Shown here: in pieces, positions 8,001-36,156 of the stretch
Numbering within the stretch: position 1 is the stretch's first letter
Layout of the letters: every line of letters starts with the position of its first letter
DNA from: Robertkochia flava
Lineage (GTDB): Bacteria > Bacteroidota > Bacteroidia > Flavobacteriales > Flavobacteriaceae
DNA: 64,000 nucleotides
Reading direction: 5' to 3'
Assembly (NCBI RefSeq): GCF_020166515.1
Contig: NZ_JAINZT010000007.1
Location: forward strand, 248,001-312,000
Program-made: the position numbers and the translations under genes
Notes under the pieces: model-generated
The model's database searches: none
Seen by the model: only the letters and a program-made list of their open reading frames with translations
Told to the model about the DNA's origin: nothing

Positions 8001-10990
8001 TTACCGGCAGTGGTTCAACATCGGGAGGACAACCGATCACGGCATACAGCTGGGACTTTGGCGATGGGGTTACAGATAGCATTGCCGATCCGCTGCATAC
8101 CTACCAGGCTTCGGGAATATACACGGCTGTACTCACGGTAACCGACAGTGTGGGCTTAAGCGATACAGACTCCCTTGAGATCACGGTGACGGATCCGCTG
8201 GTTGGACCAACCGCCCTGGCGGCTGCAGATGTGCAAAGCGGGGAAGCCCCATTGGAGGTAAACTTTACCGGCAGTAGTTCAACATCGGGAGGACAACCGA
8301 TCACGGCATACAGCTGGGACTTTGGCGATGGGGTTACAGATAGCATTGCCGATCCGCTGCATACCTACCAGGCCTCGGGAATATATACGGCCATACTCAC
8401 GGTAACCGACAGTGTGGGCTTAAGCGATACAGACTCCCTTGAGATCACGGTGACGGATCCGCTGGTCGGACCAACCGCCCTGGCTGCTGCAGATGTGCAA
8501 AGCGGGGAAGCCCCATTAGAGGTGACCTTTACCGGTAGTGGTTCAACATCGGGAGGACAACCGATCACGGCATACAGCTGGGACTTTGGAGATGGGGTCA
8601 CGGATAGCATTGCCGATCCGCTGCATACCTACCAGGCCTCGGGAATATACACGGCTGTACTTACGGTAACTGACAGTGTGGGCTTAAGCGATACAGACTC
8701 CCTTGAGATCACGGTGACCGATCCACTGGTTGGACCAACCGCCCTGGCGGCTGCCGATGTGCAAAGCGGGGAAGCCCCATTGGAGGTGACCTTTACCGGC
8801 AGTGGTTCAACATCGGGAGGACAACCGATCACGGCATACAGCTGGGACTTTGGCGATGGGGTTACGGATAGCATTGCCGATCCGCTGCATATCTACCAGG
8901 CCTCGGGAATATACACGGCTGTACTTACGGTAACTGATAGTGTGGGCTTAAGCGATACAGACTCCCTTGAGATCACGGTAACCGATCCGCTGGTTGGACC
9001 AACCGCCCTGGCGGCTGCAGATGTGCAAAGCGGGGAAGCCCCATTGGAGGTGACCTTTAGCGGCAGTAGTTCAACATCGGGAGGACAACCGATCACGGCA
9101 TACAGCTGGGACTTTGGCGATGGGGTAACGGATAGCATTGCTGATCCGTTGCATACCTACCAGGCCTCGGGAATATACACGGCTGTACTCACGGTAACTG
9201 ACAGTGTGGGCTTAAGCGATACAGACTCCCTTGAGATCACGGTGACCGATCCGCTGGTTGGACCAACCGCCCTGGCGGCTGCAGATGTGCAAAGCGGGGA
9301 AGCCCCATTGGAGGTGACCTTTAGCGGCAGTAGTTCAACATCCGGTGGACAACCGATCACGGCATACAGCTGGGACTTTGGCGATGGGGTCACGGATAGC
9401 ATTGCCGATCCGCTGCATACCTACCAGGTTTCAGGAATATATACGGCTGTACTCACGGTAACCGACAGTTTAGGCTTAAGCGATACAGACTCCCTTGAGA
9501 TCACGGTGACGGATCCGCTGGTCGGACCAACCGCCCTGGCTGCTGTAGATGTGCAAAGCGGGGAAGCCCCATTAGAGGTAAACTTTACCGGTAGTGGTTC
9601 AACATCGGGAGGACAACCGATCACGGCATACAGCTGGGACTTTGGCGATGGGGTTACAGATAGCATTGCCGATCCGCTGCATACCTACCAGGCTTCGGGA
9701 ATATACACGGCCGTACTCACGGTAACCGACAGTGTGGGCTTAAGCGATACGGACTCCCTTGAGATCACGGTGACCGATCCGCTGGTTGGACCAACCGCCC
9801 TGGCGTCTGCAGATGTGCAAAGCGGGGAAGCCCCATTGGAGGTGACCTTTAGCGGCAGCGGTTCAACATCGGGAGGACAACCGATCACGGCATACAGCTG
9901 GGACTTTGGCGATGGGGTCACGGATAGCATTGCTGATCCGCTGCATACCTACCAGGCCTCAGGAATATACACGGCCGTACTCACGGTTACTGACAGTTTG
10001 GGCTTAAGCGATACGGACTCCCTTGAGATCACAGTGACCGATCCGCTGGTTGGACCAACGGCAGTGGTTGTTTCTGATGTGAAATCCGGGGAAGCTCCCC
10101 TGGAAGTAAGTTTTAGTGGTAGCGGGTCGCTTCCAGGGACTAACCCCATCATCAGTTATAACTGGGATTTTGGGGATGGAATAAGTGATACCCTTCCGGA
10201 TCCGGTCCATATTTATGAAGCAACAGGAATGTTTACAGCTGTGCTTACGGTGACGGATAGTATCGGATTAAGCGATTCAAACTTTGTAAAGGTGCGGGTA
10301 ACCGAACCTGGATTAACCTCAGAAGTAGTTAGTTTTACACTTGTTAACGCAGACACCGATACCGATCTTTTTGAGCTGGTAGATGGAAGCGTCATTGATC
10401 TCAGCACCTTAGGTGGCGCAGGATTAAATATCCGGGCAAACACCGCTCCTGCAGAGGTTGGAAAAGTAATTTTTGAGCTTCTGGGTCCTAATGCTACCAC
10501 TTCCACCCAGCAAAAAATACCCTATGCTCTTTTTGGTACAAAGAATTCGGATTACCGATCGGGAATCCTGTCTCCGGGTACACATACATTAACCGCTACG
10601 CCTTATGAAACAGGAGGTAATGCACCACCGGGATTGGCCTTAACAGTAAACTTCAGCGTTGTAAATGTTCAAACCAAATCCGGCTCAGAGGCTGATTTGA
10701 ACTCATTGACCTCAAATAGTATTACTTCTGGAATGATAGTCATGTACCCGAACCCGGCCAATAGCCTGGTCCATATTTCCGGATTGAATCCGCCTTCTGT
10801 ATCAGGTAATACCATTTTCCATATCCATGATCTGAAAGGGAGTCTGGTGAAATCCTTAAATGGAACAGACTGGTACAGAAACAGCGAGTACCAGCTTCCG
10901 GTTGATGATCTGCAACAGGGCATCTACATCCTTAGTCTTGAAAATGGGGGGGATTTGTATTTCAGTCAGCGACTGGTCATAAAAAAATAG
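2072..10990 (+). CDS. giant malectin/PKD-repeat T9SS surface protein
   Basis: This 2972-residue protein has an extended signal region (hydrophobic core about 22-39, ending VVTGQ). In order follow: a sugar-dehydrogenase-like beta-propeller (about 40-590); a calcium-binding thrombospondin-3-like segment with DNDNDK and DPDDDNDG motifs (about 600-665); a lectin/LamG-like region (about 670-910); an ASPM/HYDIN-type domain (about 910-1017); and three malectin-like domains (about 1024-1177, 1270-1425, 1617-1768) each containing EIYWGATGGG. PKD and putative-Ig (He_PIG-like) domains lie between them. A run of PKD domains covers about 1869-2748, eight of them nearly identical, then a beta module shared with the upstream gene and a T9SS type A sorting domain (YPNPANS). 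Malectin domains suggest carbohydrate binding. It is likely displayed on the surface or secreted; catalytic activity is not evident. The domain calls are by pattern and the borders are approximate. Confidence 0.85.
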   Translation: MNRILRFPFQWISGGLYCNWIPLLLAVLVVLISTGVVTGQTISFGQTGLQGESIVNPTSLSFGPNGKLYVSQQNGTLWEFTVARDTSAPGSGNYSVVESKTITLIKNATPNHNDDGTQNTTSIRQITGILATGTPENPILYVTSSDWRIGGGGSLGNDTNLDTNSGILSRLKWNGQQWEKVDLVRGLPRCEENHSTNGMDIFSSNGQDYLLVQQGGNTNMGAPSNNFAGSSEFFLAGALLIVNLSQIQEMESSNGGPFTDPRTGTAYIYDLPTLNDPERPDITNASPSFPYGPQHPMYNATIDLGDPFGGNNGLNQAFPEPGGPVQIFAPGFRNAYDVVVTSSGKIYTSDNGPNKGWGGPPAIYDNTGTLKGDDSNTTYNSQQGDYVTNQFNITNGVSHGDQLHLIGNITDGNGTYYGGHPVPVRAFPDKAGIYKYSYDGSTWIEQGSYAFADLLSGVSGYLNQSFTLADFPSDPRQGDYTTDDINDPSLNILDIVNSSTNGISEYTATNFGGAMTGDLITASFNGSINRYKTDATGSGLILKNNAFLSGFGSQPLDVVALGDNAIFPGTIWAVTYGADNVTIFEPADFGNCIQPEDPEYDASLDYDNDGFTNGDEIANGTNPCSAGSQPTDNDNDKISDLSDPDDDNDGIPDLEDAFAIDPQNGLSTSLPLSYPFWNNDPGTGFFGLGFTGLMLDPTGNTDYLDQFDETNISFGGAAGKATVDQVDDGEALQGVNNQKYAFQFGVAADTSSPPFTIQTAIETPFDGFPPQPGQEYGIYIGTGDQDNYFKMVLDDGADPNDDTYGITLLLEEGGTVISSQNFDVAGLISANAVTFYLSIDPAQNTVNSYYSLDGGGVIMPLGLPVTLPASFLDPSDAQGMAVGIISTSGGAGTYTATWDYLNITLDEPGVLQANSQTFSFGTLAINGEANSLSLEVTNQGGATDQAITISDLIFSGPDSTLFSTNAVLPLQVGPGETKIIPVTLTPDDTARLVSAQLDVVHDGANSPLQVTLEGELTDILNTTVIRINSGGAAENYEGKAFAADQYFSSGKVYSNTKALVSPLLSTERTASSPPQLFYNIPVENGTYEVNLYFSEIYWGATGGGNGGVGSRVFDVIVEGDLVLDNFDIFAEVGAETLVVKSYNVTVTDGEISLLFDASSAVGGVNQPKISAIEIFSASNQVPIAKIGASVTSGNAPLTVNFTGEDSLDDDGIVSYEWDFGDGSTSSEANPSHIYLSEGTFTVSLTVMDSRGATNAVTTEIQVGPSQSNDGYKLLLNAGGGSVTYEGKVFQQDEYFTGGKTYTNPDALVPELLKTERSASPPEFSYQIPVVNGTYQVILHFAEIYWGATGGGSGGVGKRVFDVFLEGNIVLDNYDIYADVGAETIASKSFTTEVTDQNLDLYFSALAANGGVNQPKISAIEIYGIDNGQFSPITITSIPEQVNKPGDLADITVAAVGGDPAKAFMYSLTGQPEGILIDSLSGKISGEISQNALTGGPASDGIHQVVVTVNKEGSQPSEENFQWTVSNGPEAVASADTLSGPAPFQVAFSGLNSSSVNGVISGYEWDFGDGVSSTEANPTHVYTSNGSYAAVLTVTDELGLTDSDTMNVNVAPVSGAFELRINAGGVQLDYEGNTFFGDQGFTGGYVYTNASALVPELLKSERTAGSQLGYNIAVPNGEYTVNLYFAEIYWGATGGGSGGVGSRVFDVSLENTLVLDNFDIIAEAGAAETLVVKSFNVTVSDGQLNLFFDSSSAAGGVNQPKISAIEILSNVADPITLSQILNQVNKVGDQIDIAVEASGGDPQQNFNYSISGQPEGVDIEPTNGQIFGVVSENALTGGPAGDGVHNVTVSVTKSGSQPVDEVFQWIISNGPVAVAEADTLSGVVPLEINFSGSNSTAGLGSVQTYSWDFGDGVTDSIADPLHTYQASGIYTAVLTVTDSVGLSDTDSLEITVTDPLVGPTALAAADVQSGEAPLEVNFTGSGSTSGGQPITAYSWDFGDGVTDSIADPLHTYQASGIYTAVLTVTDSVGLSDTDSLEITVTDPLVGPTALAAADVQSGEAPLEVNFTGSSSTSGGQPITAYSWDFGDGVTDSIADPLHTYQASGIYTAILTVTDSVGLSDTDSLEITVTDPLVGPTALAAADVQSGEAPLEVTFTGSGSTSGGQPITAYSWDFGDGVTDSIADPLHTYQASGIYTAVLTVTDSVGLSDTDSLEITVTDPLVGPTALAAADVQSGEAPLEVTFTGSGSTSGGQPITAYSWDFGDGVTDSIADPLHIYQASGIYTAVLTVTDSVGLSDTDSLEITVTDPLVGPTALAAADVQSGEAPLEVTFSGSSSTSGGQPITAYSWDFGDGVTDSIADPLHTYQASGIYTAVLTVTDSVGLSDTDSLEITVTDPLVGPTALAAADVQSGEAPLEVTFSGSSSTSGGQPITAYSWDFGDGVTDSIADPLHTYQVSGIYTAVLTVTDSLGLSDTDSLEITVTDPLVGPTALAAVDVQSGEAPLEVNFTGSGSTSGGQPITAYSWDFGDGVTDSIADPLHTYQASGIYTAVLTVTDSVGLSDTDSLEITVTDPLVGPTALASADVQSGEAPLEVTFSGSGSTSGGQPITAYSWDFGDGVTDSIADPLHTYQASGIYTAVLTVTDSLGLSDTDSLEITVTDPLVGPTAVVVSDVKSGEAPLEVSFSGSGSLPGTNPIISYNWDFGDGISDTLPDPVHIYEATGMFTAVLTVTDSIGLSDSNFVKVRVTEPGLTSEVVSFTLVNADTDTDLFELVDGSVIDLSTLGGAGLNIRANTAPAEVGKVIFELLGPNATTSTQQKIPYALFGTKNSDYRSGILSPGTHTLTATPYETGGNAPPGLALTVNFSVVNVQTKSGSEADLNSLTSNSITSGMIVMYPNPANSLVHISGLNPPSVSGNTIFHIHDLKGSLVKSLNGTDWYRNSEYQLPVDDLQQGIYILSLENGGDLYFSQRLVIKK
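7940..10051 (+). repeat. eight tandem near-identical 264-bp PKD repeats
   Basis: Units start at 7940, 8204, 8468, 8732, 8996, 9260, 9524 and 9788, each at GGA CCA ACC. Only scattered substitutions separate them (for example EVNFTGS versus EVTFSGS, and single T/C changes). The second half of the preceding PKD (about 7783-7939) belongs to the same family, and a diverged PKD follows at 10052. Such homogeneity means recent expansion or ongoing conversion, so copy number probably varies between strains. It is also a known risk for assembly collapse. Confidence 0.95.
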
Positions 10991-11089: not shown

Positions 11090-11722
11090 ATGCTAAATGA
11101 ATTAAAGCAATATTACGGGCATCTTTTTGAGGAAGAGCTCATCAACGAGATCAATAAGGTAGGCACCTATAAGGAGGTTCCCGCAGGAAGTAAGCTCATC
11201 GAGATCGGCGATTACGTGAAATCCATGCCGCTCCTGGTTTCAGGAGCCATAAAGATCATGAGGGAAGATGCGGATGGGGATGAACTGCTGCTTTATTTTT
11301 TGGAAAGGGGAGATACCTGTGCAATGACTATGACTTGTTGTATGGGGAGTCATAAAAGTGAGATCCGGGCAATTGCCGAGAAAGATACACGCCTGATTAT
11401 GATTCCTGTGCAAAAGATGGAGGAATGGATGGCAAAATACCAATCCTGGAGATCCTTTGTGCTGGAGAGTTACCAGTCCAGACTTAATGAAATGCTGGAA
11501 ACTATCGATACCATTGCCTTTCTTAAAATGGACGAACGACTTATGAAGTACCTTCGCGATCGCGCCAAGATCGTCCAGGATGACTGCCTGGAAACCACCC
11601 ACCAGGAAATTGCTTACGACCTGCATACTTCAAGGGTTGTCATTTCCCGCCTGTTAAAAGCGCTGGAGAAAGAAGGTAAAATCAAATTACACAGAAACCA
11701 GATCAAGGTGGTCGATCTTTAA
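11090..11722 (+). CDS. Crp/Fnr-family regulator, candidate sulfur/persulfide-responsive activator
   Basis: This 210-residue protein has an N-terminal cyclic-nucleotide-binding-like beta-roll (about 15-115), a dimerisation helix (about 120-150) and a C-terminal winged HTH (about 165-200). The recognition helix has SRVVISRLLK at 181-190, where the CRP glutamate position is Val183, so DNA specificity should differ from CRP and FNR. The FNR iron-sulfur cysteine pattern is absent. The sensor domain instead carries Cys77, Cys83 and Cys84 in GDTCAMTMTCCMG. I chose the ATG at 11090 over an in-frame TTG at 11081. The gene heads a sulfur-oxidation island with five GTAAC-N4-GTTAC palindromes at fixed distance from -7 boxes; the inference is that this protein binds them. 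No such palindrome precedes the gene itself, so autoregulation is not supported. Confidence 0.85.
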   Translation: MLNELKQYYGHLFEEELINEINKVGTYKEVPAGSKLIEIGDYVKSMPLLVSGAIKIMREDADGDELLLYFLERGDTCAMTMTCCMGSHKSEIRAIAEKDTRLIMIPVQKMEEWMAKYQSWRSFVLESYQSRLNEMLETIDTIAFLKMDERLMKYLRDRAKIVQDDCLETTHQEIAYDLHTSRVVISRLLKALEKEGKIKLHRNQIKVVDL

Positions 11723-11732
11723 GATCACAAGT

Positions 11733-11776
11733 GTAACCATTGTTACTGTAACGGTTTCTTTCGGGATCTATATTTG
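11733..11776 (+). promoter_or_regulatory. Crp/Fnr-type palindrome plus -7 box, site 1 (before tauE)
   Basis: GTAACCATTGTTAC (11733-11746) is a perfect 5+5 dyad with a 4-bp spacer. Exactly 22 bp later comes TATATTTG (11769-11776), a perfect TAnnTTTG -7 box. The dyad centre lies about 40 bp before the expected start, as at class II Crp/Fnr-activated promoters. No good TTTG -33 element is present: its place is taken by the ACTG at the end of the site, consistent with activator dependence. Confidence 0.8.
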
Positions 11777-11797
11777 CTCCTGAAATAAAACTATGAT

Positions 11798-12601
11798 ATG
11801 GACATATTACACCTTATTCTGGGATACCTTGGGGCGCTTACAATAGGAGTTGTTTTGGGACTGATTGGCGGAGGGGGTTCGATCCTGACCGTTCCTGTTC
11901 TCGTATATCTATTGGCTATCGAGCCCGTAATTGCTACGGCATATTCCCTTTTTATTGTTGGGACCACCTCCCTGGTGGGTGCTGTAAAGAATATGAAAAA
12001 GGGACTTGTGGACTTTAAGACGGCCCTTGTTTTTGCAGTTCCGGCTTTTATTGCGGTTTATGCAACAAGAAAATACCTGGTTCCTGCCATCCCTGAAGAA
12101 ATATTTACCCTGGGCGATTTCACCATGACCCGGGATGTGGGTATCATGATCTTTTTTGCGATCATTATGCTGCTTGCTTCAGTATCCATGATACGCGGCA
12201 GAAAGGATCAGGATATCGAAGGGGAACAAGCCGTGTCTTATAATTACCCTCTCATTATTTTGGAAGGAGCTGTAGTAGGCGTACTAACAGGAATTGTGGG
12301 TGCCGGCGGCGGTTTCCTTATTATTCCGGCTCTGGTGCTGTTGGCAAAGCTGCCTATGAAACGGGCCGTGGCCACCTCCCTGCTTATTATTTCGATAAAG
12401 TCGCTGATCGGCTTTATCGGGGATGTGGAGAATCTGGATATCGACTGGAATTTCCTGATCAGTTTCACGTTGGTTTCTGTTGTGGGGATCTTTTTAGGTA
12501 TCTGGCTCAATAAATTTATTGAAGGAGGTAAACTCAAGAAATCCTTTGGTTGGTTTGTATTGATCATGGGAGTTTATATTATCCTAAAAGAATTACTCTG
12601 A
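11798..12601 (+). CDS. TauE/SafE-family sulfite/anion exporter
   Basis: This 267-residue integral membrane protein has about eight hydrophobic segments and the internal duplication typical of TauE/SafE proteins. The two half-motifs are GLIGGGGSIL (about 21-30) and GIVGAGGGFL (about 166-175), each near the start of its half. The family exports sulfite, sulfoacetate or related anions across the inner membrane. It sits between the Crp/Fnr gene and the persulfide dioxygenase genes, so exporting sulfite made by those enzymes is the most economical role (inference). It has its own palindrome-linked promoter and an intrinsic terminator at 12624, so it is probably transcribed alone. Confidence 0.85.
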   Translation: MDILHLILGYLGALTIGVVLGLIGGGGSILTVPVLVYLLAIEPVIATAYSLFIVGTTSLVGAVKNMKKGLVDFKTALVFAVPAFIAVYATRKYLVPAIPEEIFTLGDFTMTRDVGIMIFFAIIMLLASVSMIRGRKDQDIEGEQAVSYNYPLIILEGAVVGVLTGIVGAGGGFLIIPALVLLAKLPMKRAVATSLLIISIKSLIGFIGDVENLDIDWNFLISFTLVSVVGIFLGIWLNKFIEGGKLKKSFGWFVLIMGVYIILKELL

Positions 12602-12623
12602 TAAATACCCGGATAAAATTTTT

Positions 12624-12652
12624 AAAAGGCTGATGAATATCAGCCTTTTTTT
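12624..12652 (+). terminator. intrinsic terminator after tauE
   Basis: An 11-bp perfect stem (12624-12634 with 12639-12649, core AGGCTGAT/ATCAGCCT), loop GAAT, then a T-run to 12652. Confidence 0.9.
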
Positions 12653-12672
12653 ATTTCCAGGATTTCACCTTT

Positions 12673-12716
12673 GTAACAATTGATACTGCAAAACAATTTA
12701 GGGGGTAATAGCTTTA
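12673..12716 (+). promoter_or_regulatory. Crp/Fnr-type palindrome plus -7 box, site 2 (before dioxygenase 1)
   Basis: GTAACAATTGATAC (12673-12686) is the dyad with one mismatch in the right half-site. TAGCTTTA (12709-12716), one base off TAnnTTTG, begins exactly 22 bp later, the same geometry as the other four sites. The ATG follows at 12745. Confidence 0.75.
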
Positions 12717-12744
12717 CCAGACAATTATTAAATCATGAAGAATT

Positions 12745-14157
12745 ATGAAAATTGAACAGATTTATACGGGTTGCCTTGCACATGCGGCTTATTATATAGA
12801 AAGTGATGGCGAAGCAGCTATTTTTGATCCTTTACGTGAAGTACAGCCATATCTTGATCGTGCGGTTGAGGATGGGGCCAGGATCAAATATGTTTTTGAA
12901 ACCCACTTCCATGCCGATTTTGTAAGCGGACATTTGGATCTCAGGAAAAAAACCGGGGCCGATATTGTGTTCGGACCCACGGCAAAACCGGGATACGAGG
13001 CTATTATCGCAAAAGACGGACAGGTATTTCAGGTAGGTAAATATAAAATTAAGGTGCTGCACACCCCCGGGCATACCATGGAGAGCACCACCTATCTGCT
13101 GATCGATGAACATGGAAAGGAACATGGAATTATAACCGGGGATACCTTATTTATTGGGGATGTGGGCAGACCTGACCTTGCGCAACATGTTGTCGAGGAC
13201 CTGACAGAAGAAAAACTGGCCGGTTATTTGTACGAATCCCTGAGAAATAAGATCATGCCTTTGCCGGATGATCTCATTGTTTATCCAAATCACGGGGCGG
13301 GTTCTGCCTGTGGAAAAATGATGAGTAAAGAAACCACGGATACCCTGGGGAATCAGAAGGCTACAAATTATGCGCTGAGGGCGGATATGACCAAAGAAGA
13401 GTTTATTGACGAATTGCTAACCGGATTGACCACCCCTCCCGGATACTTTCCGCAAAATGTACTGATGAATATTAAAGGTTATGACAGCTTCGATCAGGTA
13501 AGGGATCGGGCGGAAACCCCTATGAGTCCTGAGGAGTTCGAAATGACGGCCAATGCTTCCCAGGCTCTTGTTCTGGATACAAGAGCGGACGAAGAATTTG
13601 CAAAGGGTTTTATTCCCAACAGTATTAATATTGGTTTAAAGGGCAATTTTGCCCCCTGGGTAGGAGAAATGATCCCTGATGTGAAACAGGAGATTCTGCT
13701 GATTGCTGAACCCGGAAAGGAAGAAGAAGCGATTACCAGATTGGCCAGGGTGGGGTATGATGGTGTTATCGGGTACCTCGATGGAGGCTTCCAAAGCTGG
13801 AAAGATGCTGGTAAGGAAGTTGATCGTGTAGAGCGACTGGATGTAAGTAGCTTTGAAAATATTTTCAACGATGATATACCGGTTTTCGATGTCCGAAAAA
13901 AGAGCGAATTCGATTCGGAACATCTTATGGGTGCTGAAAATATTCCGCTGAATGAGATCAATAAGCACCTTGCTGAATTCCCAAGGAATAAGAAGTTCTA
14001 CCTGCATTGTGCAGGGGGCTACAGAAGCATGATCGCGGCTTCTATACTTAAACAAAGAGGATGGGATAACTTTGCAGATCTTCGCGGAGGATTTGATAGG
14101 ATCAAGGAATCAAACTTGCCTAAGTCTGATTATATATGCCCTACAACCTTGCTTTAA
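12745..14157 (+). CDS. persulfide dioxygenase-rhodanese fusion, copy 1 (CstB/ETHE1-type)
   Basis: This 470-residue protein starts with a metallo-beta-lactamase-fold dioxygenase domain (about 1-250) with THFHADFVSGH, HTPGHTMEST and TGDTLFIGDVGRPDL. By analogy with ETHE1 the single iron would be held by His54, His109 and Asp132. Two rhodanese domains follow. The first (about 270-350) lacks a cysteine at the active-site loop and reads IAEPGKEEE, so it is probably non-catalytic. The second (about 365-460) has HCAGGYRS with catalytic Cys422. Known fusions oxidise glutathione, CoA or bacillithiol persulfides to sulfite and can make thiosulfate. It probably acts in the cytoplasm on the product of the SQR at 16622. 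No signal peptide is visible. A close paralogue follows immediately. Confidence 0.88.
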   Translation: MKIEQIYTGCLAHAAYYIESDGEAAIFDPLREVQPYLDRAVEDGARIKYVFETHFHADFVSGHLDLRKKTGADIVFGPTAKPGYEAIIAKDGQVFQVGKYKIKVLHTPGHTMESTTYLLIDEHGKEHGIITGDTLFIGDVGRPDLAQHVVEDLTEEKLAGYLYESLRNKIMPLPDDLIVYPNHGAGSACGKMMSKETTDTLGNQKATNYALRADMTKEEFIDELLTGLTTPPGYFPQNVLMNIKGYDSFDQVRDRAETPMSPEEFEMTANASQALVLDTRADEEFAKGFIPNSINIGLKGNFAPWVGEMIPDVKQEILLIAEPGKEEEAITRLARVGYDGVIGYLDGGFQSWKDAGKEVDRVERLDVSSFENIFNDDIPVFDVRKKSEFDSEHLMGAENIPLNEINKHLAEFPRNKKFYLHCAGGYRSMIAASILKQRGWDNFADLRGGFDRIKESNLPKSDYICPTTLL

Positions 14158-14190
14158 ACCTATAATGCCAGGTGTTTCAAGGTTGTTTGA

Positions 14191-14218
14191 AAGGCTCCGG
14201 ATTTCCGGGGCCTTTTTT
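14191..14218 (+). terminator. intrinsic terminator after dioxygenase copy 1
   Basis: Stem AAGGCTCCGG (14191-14200) with CCGGGGCCTT (14205-14214, one G-T pair), loop ATTT, T-run to 14218. It separates the two paralogues into independent units. Confidence 0.9.
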
Positions 14219-14232
14219 CTGCGGTTTTCTGT

Positions 14233-14276
14233 GTAACCAATGTTACTGGCCAAAGTGCTTCCGCATCTTAATTTTA
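14233..14276 (+). promoter_or_regulatory. Crp/Fnr-type palindrome plus -7 box, site 3 (before dioxygenase 2)
   Basis: GTAACCAATGTTAC (14233-14246) is a perfect dyad, and TAATTTTA (14269-14276, one mismatch to TAnnTTTG) starts 22 bp later. An in-frame ATG at 14240 falls inside this palindrome, so it cannot be the start of a gene transcribed from this promoter. This supports the ATG at 14303. Confidence 0.8.
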
Positions 14277-14302
14277 CATCAAAATTAAAAGCAAAACTTT
14301 TT

Positions 14303-15715
14303 ATGAGAATTGAACAAATATATACCGGATGCCTGGCGCAGGGCGCTTATTACATAGAAAGCAATGGTGAAGTTGCAATTATTGATCCGCTGCGGGAAGT
14401 TAAACCTTATATGGATAAGGCTAAAGCCGATGGTGCAAAGATCAAATATATCTTTGAAACCCACTTCCACGCCGATTTTGTCAGCGGTCACCTCACCTTG
14501 TCTAAACAAAGTGGCGCCCCTGTGATTTATGGCCCGCTGGCGAACCCATCATTCGATGCGGTTATCGCCCAAGATGGACAGGAGTTTGCTCTTGGAAAAA
14601 TAACCATTAAGGTATTGCATACACCGGGACATACCATGGAGAGTACCACTTACCTCCTGAGAGATGAAGAGGGGAAAGATCACGCAATTTTCACGGGTGA
14701 CACCTTATTTCTGGGAGATGTGGGCAGACCGGATTTGGCACAAAAAGCTGCCGATATGACCCAGGAGGATCTTGCCGGTACCCTGTTTGACAGTTTAAGA
14801 AACAAGATTATGCCATTAGCAGATGAAGTCATCGTTTATCCTGCGCATGGAGCAGGGTCTGCATGTGGTAAGAATATGATGAAGGAAACGGTGGATACCC
14901 TCGGGAATCAAAAAAACATGAATTATGCCCTGAGAGCAGATATGACCAGGGAAGAGTTTATTGAGGAGGTTACAGATGGATTATTACCACCACCAAAATA
15001 TTTCCCACTGAACGTAAAAATGAATAAAGAAGGATACGAGGATATTGATGACGTTCTTGAAAGAGGGATGCAGGCTCTTGATGCAGAGGCTTTTGAACAC
15101 CTGGCCAATGAAACAGGGGCATTGGTGCTCGATGTCAGGAATCAGGCGGAATTCGCCAAAGGTCATGTGCCAAGATCGATATTTATAGGACTGGATGGCG
15201 ACTTTGCACCATGGGTAGGTGCTTTAATAGCCGATGTAGCCCAACCGATACTGTTGGTGGTAGAGGAAGAGAAAGTGGAAGAGGCAGTAACCCGGTTATC
15301 CCGTGTGGGATTTGATAAAACCCTTGGATATCTCAAGGGTGGGTTCAACGCCTGGAAGTTGGCTGCTAAGGAATACGATACCGTTGATTCTGTACCTGCC
15401 TCTAATTTCAGGGAGGTCATGGAGGACAACCCAATTCCGGTTATCGATGTCAGACGTAAGAGCGAGTACCTTTCTGAACGGGTAGTAAATGCCGAAAATG
15501 CGCCATTGGATTTTTTGAATGAGCATTTAAAGGAAATGCCGGAAGGTCAGAATTTCTTTGTGCATTGTGCCGGAGGCTATAGAAGTATGATCGCTGCCTC
15601 TATATTGAAAAGCCGTGGGATTCATAACCTGATCAACGTCGAAGGAGGTTTCAAAGCGATCAAGGAGGTCGGAGCTCCGGTTACGGATTATGTTTGTCCT
15701 TCTACGCTCAATTAA
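14303..15715 (+). CDS. persulfide dioxygenase-rhodanese fusion, copy 2
   Basis: This 470-residue paralogue of the preceding gene has the same length and domain order. The dioxygenase domain contains THFHADFVSGH, HTPGHTMEST and TGDTLFLGDVGRPDL. The first rhodanese domain again lacks a catalytic Cys (VVEEEKVEE at the loop), and the second has HCAGGYRS with Cys422. The start at 14303 gives MRIEQIYTGC, aligned with MKIEQIYTGC of copy 1; the longer frame from 14240 runs back through the regulatory palindrome. Two differently evolving copies in tandem may reflect different persulfide substrates or expression dosage. The sequence does not decide which copy forms sulfite and which forms thiosulfate. 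Confidence 0.88.
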   Translation: MRIEQIYTGCLAQGAYYIESNGEVAIIDPLREVKPYMDKAKADGAKIKYIFETHFHADFVSGHLTLSKQSGAPVIYGPLANPSFDAVIAQDGQEFALGKITIKVLHTPGHTMESTTYLLRDEEGKDHAIFTGDTLFLGDVGRPDLAQKAADMTQEDLAGTLFDSLRNKIMPLADEVIVYPAHGAGSACGKNMMKETVDTLGNQKNMNYALRADMTREEFIEEVTDGLLPPPKYFPLNVKMNKEGYEDIDDVLERGMQALDAEAFEHLANETGALVLDVRNQAEFAKGHVPRSIFIGLDGDFAPWVGALIADVAQPILLVVEEEKVEEAVTRLSRVGFDKTLGYLKGGFNAWKLAAKEYDTVDSVPASNFREVMEDNPIPVIDVRRKSEYLSERVVNAENAPLDFLNEHLKEMPEGQNFFVHCAGGYRSMIAASILKSRGIHNLINVEGGFKAIKEVGAPVTDYVCPSTLN

Positions 15716-15724
15716 CAGAGTTGT

Positions 15725-15768
15725 GTAACTATTGTTACTGTGCATAGTTTGATATTGAAGTACCTTGG
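15725..15768 (+). promoter_or_regulatory. Crp/Fnr-type palindrome plus -7 box, site 4 (140 bp before rhodanese gene)
   Basis: GTAACTATTGTTAC (15725-15738) is a perfect dyad. TACCTTGG (15761-15768, one mismatch to TAnnTTTG) begins 22 bp later. Unlike the other four sites the next start codon is far away (15908), and a terminator lies between. Confidence 0.75.
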
Positions 15769-15773
15769 TAAAG

Positions 15774-15892
15774 GATTAATAGGTTGGAGGCCCTTGAGAA
15801 CGATTTTGCAATGTCGGGCCTCTCAATTCACAGATTGATCATTATTGGTTGGATTGGGAAGTAGTTAGGTTTTACCTGACTGCTTCCTTTTT
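15774..15892 (+). ncRNA. candidate small RNA or attenuated leader under Crp/Fnr-type control
   Basis: A transcript from the site 4 promoter would start near 15774. It would contain a hairpin GAGGCCC (15787-15793) with GGGCCTC (15816-15822) and end at the strong terminator 15857-15892. That yields a roughly 120-nt RNA with no convincing reading frame. Either this is a stand-alone small RNA, or the terminator is a regulated attenuator in the 5' leader of the rhodanese gene at 15908. The existence and role of the RNA are inferred from sequence signals only. Confidence 0.35.
15857..15892 (+). terminator. strong intrinsic terminator just before the rhodanese gene
   Basis: A 14-bp stem (15857-15870 with 15874-15887, two G-T pairs), a TTT loop and five T residues. 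It lies 15 bp before the ATG at 15908 and 88 bp after the site 4 -7 box. Confidence 0.88.
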
Positions 15893-15907
15893 AAATGTCA
15901 GGATAAA

Positions 15908-16252
15908 ATGATTTTAGATACACTACGCGAACTGCTTTTTTCTCCCGGATCGGATCAGGTAAAGGTTTTATCACCGGAAGATTATAAAAGGAGAATTTCA
16001 AATGGAAATGCAGTGATTATAGATGTGCGAACCAAAAGAGAATACCTGGAAGGGCATATTGAAGGTGCTAGAAACCTGGATATTTTTCAAACCGGGAAGT
16101 TTCAGTCCCAATGTGAGCTACTCAACAGGGAGCAGCCGGTTTACATTTATTGCAGATCAGGTAATCGCAGCAGGAGGGCTTCCAAAATGTTATCCCGGAT
16201 GGGATTTAAGGAGATATATGATCTGAAAGGTGGAATCTTGAACTGGTATTGA
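15908..16252 (+). CDS. single-domain rhodanese-like sulfurtransferase
   Basis: This 114-residue rhodanese domain has an IIDVRTKREYLEGHI entry strand and a YCRSGNRS active-site loop with Cys82; it ends KGGILNWY. It would carry sulfane sulfur as a Cys persulfide in the cytoplasm; no signal peptide or membrane segment is visible. Such stand-alone rhodaneses often shuttle sulfur between SQR and persulfide dioxygenases, which fits this neighbourhood. It is 9 bp upstream of the CxxC protein at 16262, so the two are co-transcribed. Access to the site 4 promoter depends on reading through the terminator at 15857. Confidence 0.85.
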   Translation: MILDTLRELLFSPGSDQVKVLSPEDYKRRISNGNAVIIDVRTKREYLEGHIEGARNLDIFQTGKFQSQCELLNREQPVYIYCRSGNRSRRASKMLSRMGFKEIYDLKGGILNWY

Positions 16253-16261
16253 AAAGGATTC

Positions 16262-16537
16262 ATGAGAACAAGAATAATAATTCAGAATCTGAAATGTGGC
16301 GGGTGCGCCAAATCCATCTTATCCAGGCTTTCAGGGGAGAAAGATATCCTCCATACTGAAGTAATACTGGAAGAGCATACGGTGTTGGTGGAACATGAGT
16401 TGTCGGAAACGCCTTTGCGGGTCAAATCGGTTTTAAAGCAATTGGGATACCCCTCGGTAGAAGAGGAAAATGGCATTCTTCAGAAGGCCAGGTCAGTGGT
16501 GAGCTGTGCAAGTGGGAAGATAAAGTCTTCAGAATGA
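16262..16537 (+). CDS. small heavy-metal-associated (HMA-like) CxxC protein
   Basis: This 91-residue protein has the ferredoxin-like HMA pattern: an initial beta strand, then KCGGCAKS with Cys12 and Cys15, and a later LGYPSVEEEN segment. A third cysteine (Cys82) lies in a short C-terminal tail. HMA proteins usually bind Cu(I) or Zn(II). Beside a rhodanese and SQR it may instead handle thiol or persulfide chemistry, or protect copper-thiol balance when sulfide is present (inference). It is translationally close to the rhodanese gene (9-bp gap) and followed by a weak terminator-like hairpin. Confidence 0.7.
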   Translation: MRTRIIIQNLKCGGCAKSILSRLSGEKDILHTEVILEEHTVLVEHELSETPLRVKSVLKQLGYPSVEEENGILQKARSVVSCASGKIKSSE

Positions 16538-16550
16538 TCTATTCAGGCTT

Positions 16551-16583
16551 AAAAGGCTAACAAATATCATAATTTGCCTTTTT
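16551..16583 (+). terminator. weak terminator-like hairpin between HMA gene and SQR
   Basis: AAAAGGC (16551-16557) pairs with GCCTTTT (16576-16582), with a further AAAT/ATTT pairing inside and a T-run to 16583. The long interior makes it weaker than the others in this island. Confidence 0.5.
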
Positions 16584-16621
16584 CTAATTCACTAATTTAG
16601 AAACAATTAAAACATACTGAT

Positions 16622-17878
16622 ATGAAATATCAAGTGCTCATTATAGGTGGTGGGACCGCGGGTTTGATGACTGCAGCCCAATTGAAAAAGGCAAATAAAG
16701 ATTTGAATATCGCATTAATTGAACCTTCAGAAACACATTATTATCAGCCCGCATGGACGCTGGTTGGTGCTGGAACTTATGATTTTGAGAATACCGCTCG
16801 TCCCACCAAAAATTTTATACCCAAAGGGGTAACCTGGATAAAGGACCGTGCGACCGGATTCGATGCGCCAAACCAAATAGTTAAAACAGCCGAATCGGGA
16901 GATATCGGGTATGAATACCTGGTGGTGGCACCGGGGTTGGTGATGGACTATGATAGAATTGAGGGGTTAGCCGAGGCTATAGATAAAGGGGTGGTATGCA
17001 GCAATTATACCGACCCTAAGCATACCTGGGAGGTATTAAAGAATTTTAAGGGAGGCAATGCCATTTTTACTCAACCTTCCGGGGCCATAAAATGTGGAGG
17101 AGCACCTCAGAAAATAGCATATCTCGCAGCCGATTATGTGAGAAAACACGGATTGCAATCCAAAACCAACCTGGCGTTCTTAACCCCTGGTACAACCATT
17201 TTCGGGGTCAAGGAGATTCGCGAAACGCTTCTTAAGGTGATCGACAGGTATGGCATGATCTTCAAGCCGCATATGGAGCCGGTAAAAATAGATGGAAAAA
17301 AGCAGAAAATATGGTTCAAATACAATGGTCCGGAGGATAAAAAACCGCTGTTTGACGGAACGGGAAAATTAGAAGGGAAGGAACTGGAAAATGGTCTTAT
17401 TGAGATGCATTTTGATATGCTTCATCTCGCCCCGCCCCAGGCTGCCCCTGAATTTATAAGGACTTCAGATCTGGTTAATGATGGAGGTTGGTTGGAAGTG
17501 GATCAATATTCCATGCAGCATAAGAAATATGCCAATATTTTCGGACTTGGAGATGTGGCCGGGCTACCTACCGCCAAAACCGGGGCTGCCATCAGAAAAC
17601 AAGTACCCGTTGTAGTTGATAACATCCTGAAACTCATTGCGAGTAAACAGGCAGATAATCACTCCTATAACGGATATAGTTCCTGCCCCCTGGTTACGGC
17701 TTATGGAAAGATGGTATTGGCTGAGTTTGATTACGACGGAAACTTTACCCCGGACCCCAAACTAAAGCAAATGCTCATCAGCGATTCTTCAAAAGAGCAC
17801 TGGAGATTGTGGATGCTCAAAAAATATATGCTTCCATATCTGTATTGGAATAAGATGCTTAAAGGGGAAAAAGTCTGA
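16622..17878 (+). CDS. sulfide:quinone oxidoreductase-like flavoprotein (type II-like)
   Basis: This 418-residue FAD/NAD(P)-fold protein starts with the dinucleotide motif IIGGGTAGLMTAAQL. It carries the two cysteines expected of SQR: Cys158 in IKCGGAPQKI and Cys355 in SSCPLVTAYGKM, both resembling the mitochondrial/type II SQR motifs. Cys126 (GVVCSNYT) is an extra cysteine. IFGLGDVAGLPTAKTGAA is the second FAD-contact region, and the C-terminal LWMLKKYMLPYLYWNKML helix is amphipathic, suggesting membrane-surface association. SQR oxidises H2S, passes electrons to menaquinone and sulfane sulfur to a thiol acceptor. The palindrome seen at the other units is absent here, so it may depend on read-through from 15908 or a separate promoter. 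Confidence 0.87.
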   Translation: MKYQVLIIGGGTAGLMTAAQLKKANKDLNIALIEPSETHYYQPAWTLVGAGTYDFENTARPTKNFIPKGVTWIKDRATGFDAPNQIVKTAESGDIGYEYLVVAPGLVMDYDRIEGLAEAIDKGVVCSNYTDPKHTWEVLKNFKGGNAIFTQPSGAIKCGGAPQKIAYLAADYVRKHGLQSKTNLAFLTPGTTIFGVKEIRETLLKVIDRYGMIFKPHMEPVKIDGKKQKIWFKYNGPEDKKPLFDGTGKLEGKELENGLIEMHFDMLHLAPPQAAPEFIRTSDLVNDGGWLEVDQYSMQHKKYANIFGLGDVAGLPTAKTGAAIRKQVPVVVDNILKLIASKQADNHSYNGYSSCPLVTAYGKMVLAEFDYDGNFTPDPKLKQMLISDSSKEHWRLWMLKKYMLPYLYWNKMLKGEKV

Positions 17879-17896
17879 GACCTCGAAAGTATAGTT

Positions 17897-17925
17897 AAAG
17901 GGTGGCCAGGGAGTCACCCTTTTTT
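17897..17925 (+). terminator. intrinsic terminator after SQR
   Basis: AAAGGGTG (17897-17904) pairs with CACCCTTT (17915-17922), followed by T residues to 17925. Confidence 0.85.
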
Positions 17926-17942
17926 ATTCCCCCCTGGCATAG

Positions 17943-17986
17943 GTAACCTATGTTACAGACTCAACAGCTATTTTCTCCTTTATTTG
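17943..17986 (+). promoter_or_regulatory. Crp/Fnr-type palindrome plus -7 box, site 5 (before YeeE/YedE pair)
   Basis: GTAACCTATGTTAC (17943-17956) is a perfect dyad. TTTATTTG (17979-17986, one mismatch to TAnnTTTG) begins 22 bp later. An upstream ATG at 17950 lies inside the dyad, so the downstream gene starts at 18007. Confidence 0.78.
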
Positions 17987-18006: not shown

Positions 18007-18564
18007 ATGGAATGGATTTATGAACCCTGGCCCTGGTACGTTTCCGGGCCTATGATCGCAGTGATCATGCTGCTGTTGTTGATGGCAGGAAAAAATTTCG
18101 GGATGTCTGCCAATTTAAGAACCTTTTGTACCATTGCCGGTGCCGGGAAAACCAATGATTTCTTTCGTTTCGACTGGAAATCACAACGATGGAATTTACT
18201 CCTGGTCGCGGGTGCGGTAATGGGTGGATTTCTTGCCAATACCGTCTTAAGCAGGGATACAAAAGTAAATATAAATGAAGATGTAGTCGTAGAGCTTCAG
18301 AATATGGGATTTGAGAGCGCTGGGGATGCCTATCTTCCGACGGAAATATTTTCGAATGATGTTTTTGGTCAGCCCATAACGCTCGGGCTACTGCTTCTGG
18401 GCGGATTTCTTGTGGGATTTGGAGCAAGATATGCAGGGGGGTGTACTTCGGGTCACGCGATCTCAGGAATGAGTGACCTTCAGCTGCCATCTCTGATCGC
18501 TGTGATCGGTTTCTTTGCCGGAGGCTTGATCATGATCAACCTGTTGTTCCCCCTGATTTTCTAA
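18007..18564 (+). CDS. YeeE/YedE-type sulfur transporter, first half
   Basis: This 185-residue membrane protein has about four to five hydrophobic segments. It carries the family cysteine motifs LRTFCTIAGAG (Cys41) and GARYAGGCTSGHAISG (Cys146). YeeE/YedE (TsuA-like) proteins take up thiosulfate, relaying it past conserved cysteines; related PmpA/PmpB pairs are split into two genes as here. The start at 18007 (MEWIYEPWPW) is chosen because the longer frame from 17950 lies in the regulatory palindrome. The second half follows after 9 bp, so the two products likely form one transporter. Whether it imports thiosulfate or moves another sulfur species cannot be read from sequence. Confidence 0.85.
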   Translation: MEWIYEPWPWYVSGPMIAVIMLLLLMAGKNFGMSANLRTFCTIAGAGKTNDFFRFDWKSQRWNLLLVAGAVMGGFLANTVLSRDTKVNINEDVVVELQNMGFESAGDAYLPTEIFSNDVFGQPITLGLLLLGGFLVGFGARYAGGCTSGHAISGMSDLQLPSLIAVIGFFAGGLIMINLLFPLIF

Positions 18565-18573
18565 GAACTAAAA

Positions 18574-18999
18574 ATGAAACGAATGAAAAGAGGAATTTTT
18601 TATATCCTGATAGGGGTGATCTTTGGTATCACCATGTTTAAATCGGAAGCAGCTTCCTGGTTCCGCATCTATGAGATGTTTCAGTTTAAGGCCTTTCATA
18701 TGTACGGTATCATAGGATCTGCATTGGCCCTGGGAGTGATCTTCGTACAGTTTATTAAACGGGGTAAGATCAAAAGTTTTAGTGGCGAAGAGATCATAAT
18801 CCCTCCCAAGCAAAAGAGTGTTCCCCGATACCTGATTGGCGGGGTGCTGTTCGGATTGGGGTGGGCTCTCGCCGGGGCATGCCCGGGACCCATGTTTACC
18901 CTTACCGGTGCAGGATACTGGCCCATTCTGGTAGTTATCGGAGGTGCAGTGGCAGGAACTTACATCTACGGACTTTTGAGAAGTAAACTTCCGCATTAG
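18574..18999 (+). CDS. YeeE/YedE-type sulfur transporter, second half (DUF6691-like)
   Basis: This 141-residue membrane protein has four hydrophobic segments and the second-half motif GWALAGACPGPMFTLTG with Cys103, the equivalent of the GxCPGP cysteine of YeeE/YedE. It starts 9 bp after the first half and is followed by an intrinsic terminator, so the pair forms a two-gene operon under palindrome site 5. The product should pair with the 18007 protein in the inner membrane. Confidence 0.85.
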   Translation: MKRMKRGIFYILIGVIFGITMFKSEAASWFRIYEMFQFKAFHMYGIIGSALALGVIFVQFIKRGKIKSFSGEEIIIPPKQKSVPRYLIGGVLFGLGWALAGACPGPMFTLTGAGYWPILVVIGGAVAGTYIYGLLRSKLPH

Positions 19000-34654: not shown

Positions 34655-34782
34655 ATCCTTCCGGTTCGGTTACTTTGGTTACAGACCCAAGGTAATAAAG
34701 ATGTTTTATTTGCAGGTATATGCAGTCGGGGTTGTTTCTCAAGGGAATGGGGAGCGATCAAGTACACTGTTAAATACCTGTT

Positions 34783-36156
34783 ATGAAAAGACCGCAATTC
34801 TTTCTTATTGTTTTGGTGCTAATTGGAATTTTTCAAAATCACGCACAGGAAAAGGATGTACCCCGGGAATCTCAGGACCTTCAAAAGTTAACGCATCTTT
34901 TTACCAGAGGAAAGTTGGAAGGGCATATCCGAAACTATTTTATGTTGACCCATAACCAGGGAAACCTGAAGGATTATTACACCGATGCTGTCGGAGGGTC
35001 CATAGCATTCAGGACCATGCCTATTAATGGCTTTGAAGCCGGGGTGAAGGGGTTGTTTACCTACTCGGCATTTTCTGCCGATCTGAATGCCCCGGACCCC
35101 ATTACAGGAGGTACTGCAAAATGGGAGCATCAACTGTACGATATCACCAATCCTTATAACCTTAATGATCTTGATCGACTGGAGCATTTGTATTTGAAAT
35201 ACAGGTTTTCCTCAGGCTATGTGACCTACGGGAAGATGGAGATCGAAGATACACCCTTGCTCAACGAAAGTGATGACCGCATGAAACCCTTTGCCTTTAA
35301 GGGAGTCTGGATGCACCTGGATCAAAGGGGGCATACTCTTGATCTTTCCTGGATAGACAGGGTGTCTCCCCGGAGTACGGTGGAGTGGTTTGATTTTAAT
35401 GAGGCTATTGGAATAGAGGATAACGGGTACCAGCCCAATGGCACACCTGCTCATTATCATGAAAGAACGGAAAGCAGGGGGATTGCACTTCTGAATTACG
35501 AATACAGGTATGATCACTGGAGATTTCGCTATAATCATTGGTACCTGCACCGGATTTCCAATACAGGTATGCTTCATTTGGAATACGATATACCGGGGTG
35601 GCGATTCGGGATGCAGTATGCGTTGCAGACCCCGGATCATTTTCAGGCAGCTCTTCCCTATGCCGAACGATATATGCAGGAAGGGGAGCAAGGCCAGGTT
35701 TTTAGTAGCATGGCCGAATTCCGAAGATCGGGATGGATGGTAAATGCATCTTTTTCGAAGGCATTTGCCTCCGGCAGGTTCTTATTTCCAAGGGAGTTAG
35801 GAAGGGATCACTTCTATACCTCCGTTCAGCGGTCTCGACTGGATGGTTTTGGAGATGCTGCAGTTTTTACCCTGCGGGGAGGGTGGGACCTCCATCAGAA
35901 AGGTATGTTTTTGCTCACCCAGTTTACCGGGGTCTACGGACCGGAGGTAGGGGATTATCGATTCAATAAGTACAACCTGGATTCCTACTACCTGTGGAAT
36001 ACCAAATTTACCTGGCATCTTCACAACTTTTTTGAAGGCTTAAATCTGGAATTGCTTTACGTACGAAAATGGAACAGGAATAACAGTACACCTGAGGTGG
36101 TGTTCAATTCCAGCAACCTGGGTCAACTTAATTTTATTGTTAATTATGAATTTTAA
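34783..36156 (+). CDS. OprD-like outer-membrane porin
   Basis: This 457-residue protein has a signal peptide (about 1-21, ending NHAQ). The OprD-like start LEGHIRNYFMLTHNQGNLKD is followed by many alternating amphipathic strands and a terminal aromatic residue (NYEF), typical of outer-membrane beta-barrels. OprD-family porins take up small organic nutrients. The 3' end overlaps the converging symporter gene by 4 bp, so no terminator fits between them. A partner role with the neighbouring SSS symporter and PIG-L hydrolase in nutrient uptake is plausible, but they are on the opposite strand. Confidence 0.75.
   Translation: MKRPQFFLIVLVLIGIFQNHAQEKDVPRESQDLQKLTHLFTRGKLEGHIRNYFMLTHNQGNLKDYYTDAVGGSIAFRTMPINGFEAGVKGLFTYSAFSADLNAPDPITGGTAKWEHQLYDITNPYNLNDLDRLEHLYLKYRFSSGYVTYGKMEIEDTPLLNESDDRMKPFAFKGVWMHLDQRGHTLDLSWIDRVSPRSTVEWFDFNEAIGIEDNGYQPNGTPAHYHERTESRGIALLNYEYRYDHWRFRYNHWYLHRISNTGMLHLEYDIPGWRFGMQYALQTPDHFQAALPYAERYMQEGEQGQVFSSMAEFRRSGWMVNASFSKAFASGRFLFPRELGRDHFYTSVQRSRLDGFGDAAVFTLRGGWDLHQKGMFLLTQFTGVYGPEVGDYRFNKYNLDSYYLWNTKFTWHLHNFFEGLNLELLYVRKWNRNNSTPEVVFNSSNLGQLNFIVNYEF

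Follow-up and report, generated by a model that had tools for sequence, protein, structure and literature searches.

A predicted Crp/Fnr-family regulon for sulfide and persulfide disposal in Robertkochia flava and other Flavobacteriaceae

Introduction

Which protein reads a set of near-identical palindromes spread through a sulfur-gene island of Robertkochia flava, and what would it control? The island lies in a 64,000-nucleotide stretch of contig NZ_JAINZT010000007.1 (positions 248,001 to 312,000; hereafter the window, in whose numbering coordinates are given) and begins with a gene for a Crp/Fnr-family protein (11090..11722, + strand). An earlier note on this DNA, made from its letters and open reading frames (ORFs), had described five promoters of one layout, each a GTAAC-N4-GTTAC dyad followed by a −7-like box, and had named the Crp/Fnr protein as their activator. 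Here we find that the unit recurs across the Flavobacteriaceae, which points to a sulfide/persulfide regulon that is lineage-wide and governed by a predicted activator of the Crp/Fnr family, itself a putative thiol sensor. In all probability, the five dyads are the operators of this protein, from which it would activate sulfide and persulfide disposal at class II promoters.

Results

Dyads lie at a fixed distance from a promoter box

On the + strand, dyads without mismatch occur at 11733..11746 (GTAACCATTGTTAC), 14233..14246 (GTAACCAATGTTAC), 15725..15738 (GTAACTATTGTTAC) and 17943..17956 (GTAACCTATGTTAC), and a dyad with one mismatch, a GATAC half-site, at 12673..12686 (GTAACAATTGATAC). Ordered by position, their boxes are TATATTTG (11769-11776), TAGCTTTA (12709-12716), TAATTTTA (14269-14276), TACCTTGG (15761-15768) and TTTATTTG (17979-17986), matching TAnnTTTG at 6/6, 5/6, 5/6, 5/6 and 5/6 bases. 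The five positions, the one mismatch and the exact spacing of 22 base pairs (bp) from dyad to box are as the earlier note had given them, but its reading by eye, which had turned up no further copy in the window, missed a sixth unit, which has a one-mismatch dyad at 34669..34682 (GTTACTTTGGTTAC, + strand), 22 bp ahead of a box, again TTTATTTG, at 34705-34712. Counting dyads with at most one mismatch and boxes of at least 5/6 at 22 bp, the window thus contains 6 units versus 0.03 expected, and the largest count in 200 first-order Markov sequences of the window's composition was 1.

Published statements cited here and below follow excerpts of the sources. The primary promoter of Bacteroidota is described as TAnnTTTG at −7 with TTTG near −33 (PMC7366714); the same source notes that RNA-seq data of Flavobacterium johnsoniae lack the −33 TTTG, and another source calls the −33 element non-essential (PMC2483708). 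No conserved −33 TTTG is present in the 22-bp spacers of the exact dyads from the 91 family loci described below, and the dyad occupies about the −33 place. This layout would suit an activator that contacts RNA polymerase at a fixed distance, most likely as a class II activator, and, judged by sequence, the dyad-to-box geometry would fit an operator centre at about −41.5. A homodimer of the regulator would bind GTAAC-N4-GTTAC centred about 40 bp ahead of the transcription start and recruit polymerase to the box 22 bp downstream.

The unit recurs beside one regulator gene across genera

We sampled 149 genomes of the family, each from a different genus, the family being taken as Flavobacteriaceae from its named members. 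The regulator had a match at E<=1e-20 in 126 of them. The pattern GTAACN4GTTACN20-24TANNTTTG gave 225 matches across the 149 genomes, compared with 13 for a reversed control. Of the 118 genomes that encode a close relative of the regulator, 97 had it, as did 1 of the 8 with a distant relative only and 2 of the 23 without one (3/31 combined; P = 6.5e-14, Fisher exact test of close relative versus the rest, which ignores kinship and the smaller size of regulator-less genomes). This co-occurrence supports the proposed assignment of the dyads to the Crp/Fnr gene of the island. Since the same unit stands in most sampled genera beside one regulator gene, that regulator is likely the master of sulfide defence there.

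From these genomes 99 loci were fetched, 91 (L046-L136, from 90 genomes and genera) with a close relative of the regulator and eight with a more distant one. Sulfur genes of the kinds found in the island occurred in 84 of the 91 loci, an exact dyad with a box (at least 4/6, at 21-23 bp) in 67 and a unit with at most one mismatch in 77; 74 loci had both a sulfur gene and such a unit. The spacing was sharply peaked: on the strand of the regulator gene, 137 of 170 exact dyads were followed at exactly 22 bp by a box of at least 5/6, while among the other spacings from 0 to 44 bp the highest counts were 11 at 21 bp, 5 each at 9 and 36 bp and 4 at 23 bp. When either strand, a 4/6 box and 21-23 bp were allowed and an ORF was required, 164 of the 170 qualified, the other six comprising two with a box and no ORF and four with no box. 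A further 100 loci, 80 named by their Genome Taxonomy Database (GTDB) species and 20 from the wider phylum (genomes partly overlapping the first set), had a box (at least 4/6, better strand) at 22 bp for 177 of 186 exact dyads.

In many genera the orthologous islands, a comparison proposed at the outset, carry the dyad, 22 bp and box ahead of these same sulfur genes. Within 350 bp upstream, a unit was found for 16 of 19 sulfide:quinone oxidoreductase (SQR) genes, 17 of 20 and 33 of 64 dioxygenase genes and 41 of 60 TauE genes, for 20 of 43 first YeeE halves, 12 of 30 rhodanese genes and 2 of 26 heavy-metal-associated (HMA) genes, and for none of 42 second YeeE halves; random positions in the same loci had one in 73 of 1,820 cases. 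Robertkochia sediminum, whose regulator is 87% identical and the closest among the 80 named relatives listed, keeps all five island sites at the same places, including the GATAC half-site, with diverged flanking bases.

The regulator is a Crp/Fnr-superfamily protein with an NtcA-like recognition helix

The regulator (210 amino acids (aa)) matches cNMP_binding (PF00027, 5e-12) and HTH_Crp_2 (PF13545, 3.2e-9) above the Pfam gathering scores and is a member of the Crp/Fnr superfamily. Its structure model (pLDDT 87; an earlier one made without an alignment, pLDDT 48, was set aside) has its best PDB fold match in 3dv8, followed by CRP (TMq ~0.8), with NtcA lower. Scores fell short of the NCBIfam cut-offs for the CRP equivalog (58.2 versus 266 bits), Fnr (23 versus 228 bits) and the NtcA equivalog (47.6 versus 244.95 bits).

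Among 92 regulator sequences the recognition helix reads SRVVISR in 56 (including that of R. flava), SRVVVSR in 34 and SRVMVSR and ARVVVSR in one each, so that the pattern RVx[IV]SR and a valine at residue 183 are present in 92/92. In cyanobacterial NtcA the helix has a similar RV...R form with Val at the aligned position, and the published NtcA operator, GTAN8TAC, is centred about −41.5 ahead of a −10 box in class II promoters (PMC3898017). With the helix likeness on one side and the missed NCBIfam cut-offs on the other, the regulator should act like NtcA at the DNA, yet it appears to belong to none of NtcA, CRP and Fnr. The half-site had been said to match neither the CRP nor the FNR consensus; to this must be added that the Crp/Fnr family already has it, as the published HcpR2 consensus GTAACnnnnGTTAC (PMC1274295), and that it fits the NtcA site.

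Cysteines are conserved in the same 92 sequences at C77 (92/92), C83 (89/92) and C84 (87/92), and align opposite residues 74-82 of the NtcA chain. That stretch of NtcA we take to be part of its effector pocket, and the three cysteines would presumably lie at the place where NtcA binds its effector. The likeliest signal would be sulfane sulfur, sensed by C77, C83 and C84.

Across 181 loci with Val-type regulators, all 5-4-5 palindromes were ranked by their count with a box of at least 5/6 at 22 bp. GTAAC came first with 320, followed by ATGAT (32), ATGAC (15) and GTGAC (13). The ATGAT-N4-ATCAT dyads stand exactly 22 bp ahead of a TAnnTTTG-like box (a count of 32 sites in 181 loci given without a chance control), in loci that include L228, L230, L085, L056, L201 and L216; the genes behind them resemble, by eye, those for nitrite reductase, NorC, a DUF542/RIC protein, a CcoI-type ATPase, a ribosome hibernation factor and a universal stress protein. 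They probably mark an FNR-type regulon that shares the promoter rule.

Regulators with Glu in place of Val (Glu-type) had been expected to accompany GTGAC dyads. In 20 loci with Glu-type regulators the top palindrome was GTGAC, with only four cases. Of 26 genomes outside the family with a related regulator, the 12 Glu-type ones gave 5 matches to GTGAC with a box and the 13 Val-type ones 1 (reversed control, 1), and for GTAAC with a box the matches numbered 3 and 7, respectively (reversed control, 4); in this typing one genome was assigned to neither type, two Val-type genomes were placed by genus and one (G150) has both types. Four Glu-type loci (L264, L271, L273 and L274) have mixed GTAAC/GTCAC, GTAAC or GTGAC dyads ahead of TauE, SQR or rhodanese genes, at 22-23 bp from the box. 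For eight other sulfur genes in Glu-type loci no palindrome with a box was found, and two in L276 had unrelated ones only. The Glu-type regulators in sulfur-gene loci are a possible case of a natural specificity switch.

The island and further predicted targets

By protein family, the genes of the island, all on the + strand, appear to make up a sulfide-to-sulfite pathway. Behind the first dyad lies a TauE/SafE-type sulfite exporter (11798..12601; Pfam TauE, 1.4e-45). Two genes, each behind a dyad of its own, encode predicted persulfide-dioxygenase/rhodanese fusions by their Pfam matches to metallo-beta-lactamase and rhodanese, the first (12745..14157) with a metallo-beta-lactamase domain and two rhodanese stretches and near full-length PDB matches to 3tp9 and 3r2u, the second at 14303..15715. 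We take 3r2u to be CstB and would accordingly call the first fusion CstB-like. A single-domain rhodanese (15908..16252; Pfam, 2.1e-23) follows, in one gene run with an HMA-domain protein (16262..16537; Pfam, 2e-9). The product of 16622..17878 is a flavin oxidoreductase by Pfam whose nearest PDB chains are named mitochondrial sulfide:quinone oxidoreductase (6mp5, E=2e-97), and is read as SQR. The fifth dyad precedes the two halves of a YeeE/YedE-type sulfur transporter, at 18007..18564 (Pfam Sulf_transp, 1.3e-17; partial match to TsuA structures) and 18574..18999 (Pfam DUF6691 and Sulf_transp). In this pathway SQR would convert sulfide to sulfane sulfur, the dioxygenase-rhodanese fusions would oxidize sulfane sulfur to sulfite, TauE would export the sulfite and the YeeE/YedE-type transporters would move sulfur species. 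The sixth dyad lies ahead of a gene for a 457-aa protein without a Pfam match (34783..36156, + strand), porin-like by eye, which is 46% identical to a protein sited behind an exact dyad and box in another genus (L080).

Scanning the whole genome (3.45 megabases) returned 14 matches with at most two mismatches over the 16 fixed bases versus 1.25 expected, and 6 with at most one versus 0.0 expected, the expectation coming from four Markov genomes of the window's composition, which also serve as the control at two mismatches. At three mismatches the full pattern is noise (32 matches against 44 for the reversed control) and was dropped; three such matches that were checked lie inside long frames. 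Five of the 14 matches are the island sites and one is that at 34669. The remainder lie mostly ahead of thiol or sulfur genes: thioredoxin (no mismatch), a SoxA/TsdA-type cytochrome followed by a second porin-like gene, with a third dioxygenase-rhodanese gene nearby, a thioredoxin-fold (TlpA-like) protein, DUF983 and DUF202. One site, with 4/6 boxes only, was counted on both strands and adjoins a gene that is YceI-like by eye. A scatter of the same dyad over many unrelated genes, against which the earlier note had proposed such a scan, was thus not seen; its five-promoter regulon stands as a regulon but extends further than five promoters. Elsewhere the regulator would serve thioredoxin, the third dioxygenase, the TsdA-like cytochrome and the TlpA-like and DUF983 proteins.

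Seven sites outside the island were checked, excluding that of thioredoxin, and none lies in an open frame longer than 120 codons; the thioredoxin site crosses a 137-codon stop-to-stop frame with no sign of a gene. Relatives of the thioredoxin (E<=1e-25) occur in 14 of the 149 genomes, and the site (at most two mismatches, box of at least 5/6 at 22 bp) is kept in 6 of the 14, R. flava included. Exact dyads also occur at DUF983 homologues (L070, L071, L108 and L114), TlpA-like genes (L072 and L091) and the porin-like gene of L080, and in other genera the unit stands ahead of sulfate-permease, cytochrome bd, molybdopterin (sulfite-dehydrogenase-like), DsrE, peroxiredoxin, fatty-acid-hydroxylase and outer-membrane-efflux genes.

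Some further observations concern the same genomes. Outside the window, contig C9 of R. flava has a second sulfur cluster at 189265-193418 (L343 3766-7919), where a near-dyad and box accompany both a TsdA-like cytochrome with its porin-like gene and the third dioxygenase-rhodanese gene, which is divergent. A secreted-looking protein of ~120 aa with a dyad and box recurs in L108 (8145 and 8433), L161, L152, L157 and L174, once divergent to YeeE. On contig C6 (171063-176328), short tandem GTTACAAGG-like repeats make up a good part of the one-mismatch dyads among the matches listed. Just upstream of the regulator, window positions 2072-10990 encode a 2,972-aa protein with a run of near-identical repeats of 264 bp per unit, visible as recurring antisense ORFs at 7837-9930, and with many 'WDFGDG' segments.

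Discussion

Several observations weigh against assigning the dyads to this regulator as a family-wide persulfide-responsive activator. A perfect dyad-box match is missing from 21 of the 118 genomes that encode a close relative of the regulator. Even when one mismatch is allowed, 14 of 91 loci lack the unit, and 10 of these 14 contain a sulfur gene; in loci L117-L136 an exact dyad is found in just 5 of 20. Of the 26 genomes outside the family that carry a related regulator, 20 lack such a site. In R. flava itself, the extra sites besides that of thioredoxin carry one or two mismatches. The L274 regulator, with a Glu helix, has an exact GTAAC dyad ahead of TauE, so that helix residue and site do not correspond one-to-one. 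A unit ahead of the regulator gene is rare (4 of 91 loci), and autoregulation as a general feature was rejected on this count. The cysteines are a further weak point: C77 is also present in 8 of 8 more distant paralogues and is therefore not specific, the unit occurs in 75 of 86 loci whose regulator has all three cysteines and in 2 of 5 without, and the L113 regulator lacks C83 and C84 in a locus that still has exact dyads. Cysteine loss as a mark of regulon loss, hinted at by L098 and L104, was rejected on the full set of these loci. Two loci whose regulators retain the cysteines (L064 and L066) lack both sulfur genes and sites.

What the regulator senses is accordingly the part of the picture that we hold most loosely. 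We put forward, tentatively and at a little less than even confidence, a Flavobacteriaceae-wide Crp-fold persulfide sensor whose effector stretch has become C77-x5-C83-C84 and which would control sulfide oxidation and thioredoxin, together with cytochrome bd and a sulfite-dehydrogenase-like enzyme in some genera. That the protein instead responds to oxygen, nitric oxide, heme or a nucleotide, with the sulfur genes as one output, we give a chance of about one in three: its domain has the cNMP-binding fold, the HcpR of Bacteroides thetaiotaomicron is a heme-binding protein with a role in nitrosative stress (PMC13370916) and the cysteines track the sites weakly, but the family targets are largely sulfur and thiol genes and C83 and C84 are conserved almost throughout.

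Another Crp/Fnr paralogue might read genuine sites, the neighbouring regulator being incidental or sharing them. A loose first look gave 15 regulator candidates in the genome, the half-site is also the one predicted for HcpR2-type proteins and a paralogue in G032 (L137, helix RVCVSR) also adjoins an exact dyad. Against this, which we consider unlikely, dyad-box presence tracks this regulator (97/118 versus 3/31), just one of the genome's own candidates passes E<=1e-20, and of the eight distant paralogues five have Glu and no exact dyad in the locus (L138 has one-mismatch dyads), while one of the three with Val has one.

Binding and activation by the neighbouring regulator are, we infer, the better account, and here a repressor released by persulfide, in the manner of CstR and SqrR, has to be weighed. 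CstR, SqrR and BigR repress such genes, and FisR activates them (PMC9774590). The dyad, however, keeps one constant distance to the −7 box, upstream of it and without overlap, the spacer has no conserved −33 TTTG and the layout resembles the class II activator promoters of NtcA (PMC3898017), and we regard repression as improbable. Chance palindromes in AT-rich intergenic DNA have a negligible claim: although the genome has 128 copies of GTAAC-N4-GTTAC at one mismatch or fewer, and even more of the reversed pattern (195), adding the box at 22 bp lowers the expectation at that mismatch limit to 0.03 per window and 0.0 per genome, the unit is conserved across genera, and the spacing peak, the reversed control, the Markov expectations and the conservation in R. 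sediminum led us to reject this explanation.

An activator that recognizes the dyads from the head of the island would give a candidate regulator, operator, promoter rule and target list for a large family, open to testing in cultured relatives. The rule of dyad, 22 bp and TAnnTTTG may help to read other Crp/Fnr regulons of Flavobacteriia, and ATGAT-N4-ATCAT obeys it.

Among Crp/Fnr proteins, the nearest solved relative by sequence (E 8.8e-28) and fold is 3dv8 of Eubacterium rectale, which shares two of the three cysteines in alignment but has a Glu helix (HREVITR) and a title that names no function. HcpR2 of Bacteroides, Clostridium, Thermotogales and Treponema has the identical predicted operator, GTAACnnnnGTTAC; Rodionov and others tie the operator to CRP positions 180 and 181, and HcpR2 has Pro at 181 and predicted regulons that are mostly hcp (PMC1274295), whereas the regulator here has Val, by a correspondence drawn from the R..SR pattern and the NtcA alignment, and sulfur genes. 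No hcp was seen by eye among the family targets, of which part were run against Pfam with no search aimed at hcp. NtcA has the similar helix, site and class II layout, and differs in controlling nitrogen through 2-oxoglutarate and in its promoter box; the two match at 68.9 bits in a profile comparison, and the regulator lies below the NCBIfam cut-off for NtcA.

Among systems that handle sulfide, the cst operon of Staphylococcus aureus with CstR, and the YrkD cluster of Bacillus licheniformis, combine a similar set of TauE, rhodanese-like, dioxygenase and SQR genes with a persulfide-linked regulator (PMC9774590, PMC9918477), which is a CsoR-like repressor, unlike the Crp/Fnr-family protein placed here as an activator. 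The regulators of sulfide oxidation named in these sources are CstR/YrkD, NreBC, SqrR/BigR, PigS and FisR, of the CsoR, ArsR, Fis/sigma54 and two-component types; among the openly licensed papers listed, with RegPrecise outside this scope, we found no Crp/Fnr-type regulator of sulfide oxidation and none for Bacteroidota. A further comparison is with FisR of Cupriavidus pinatubonensis, which activates sulfide-oxidation genes and has three conserved sensing cysteines (PMC9774590), but is a Fis-family protein that depends on sigma54.

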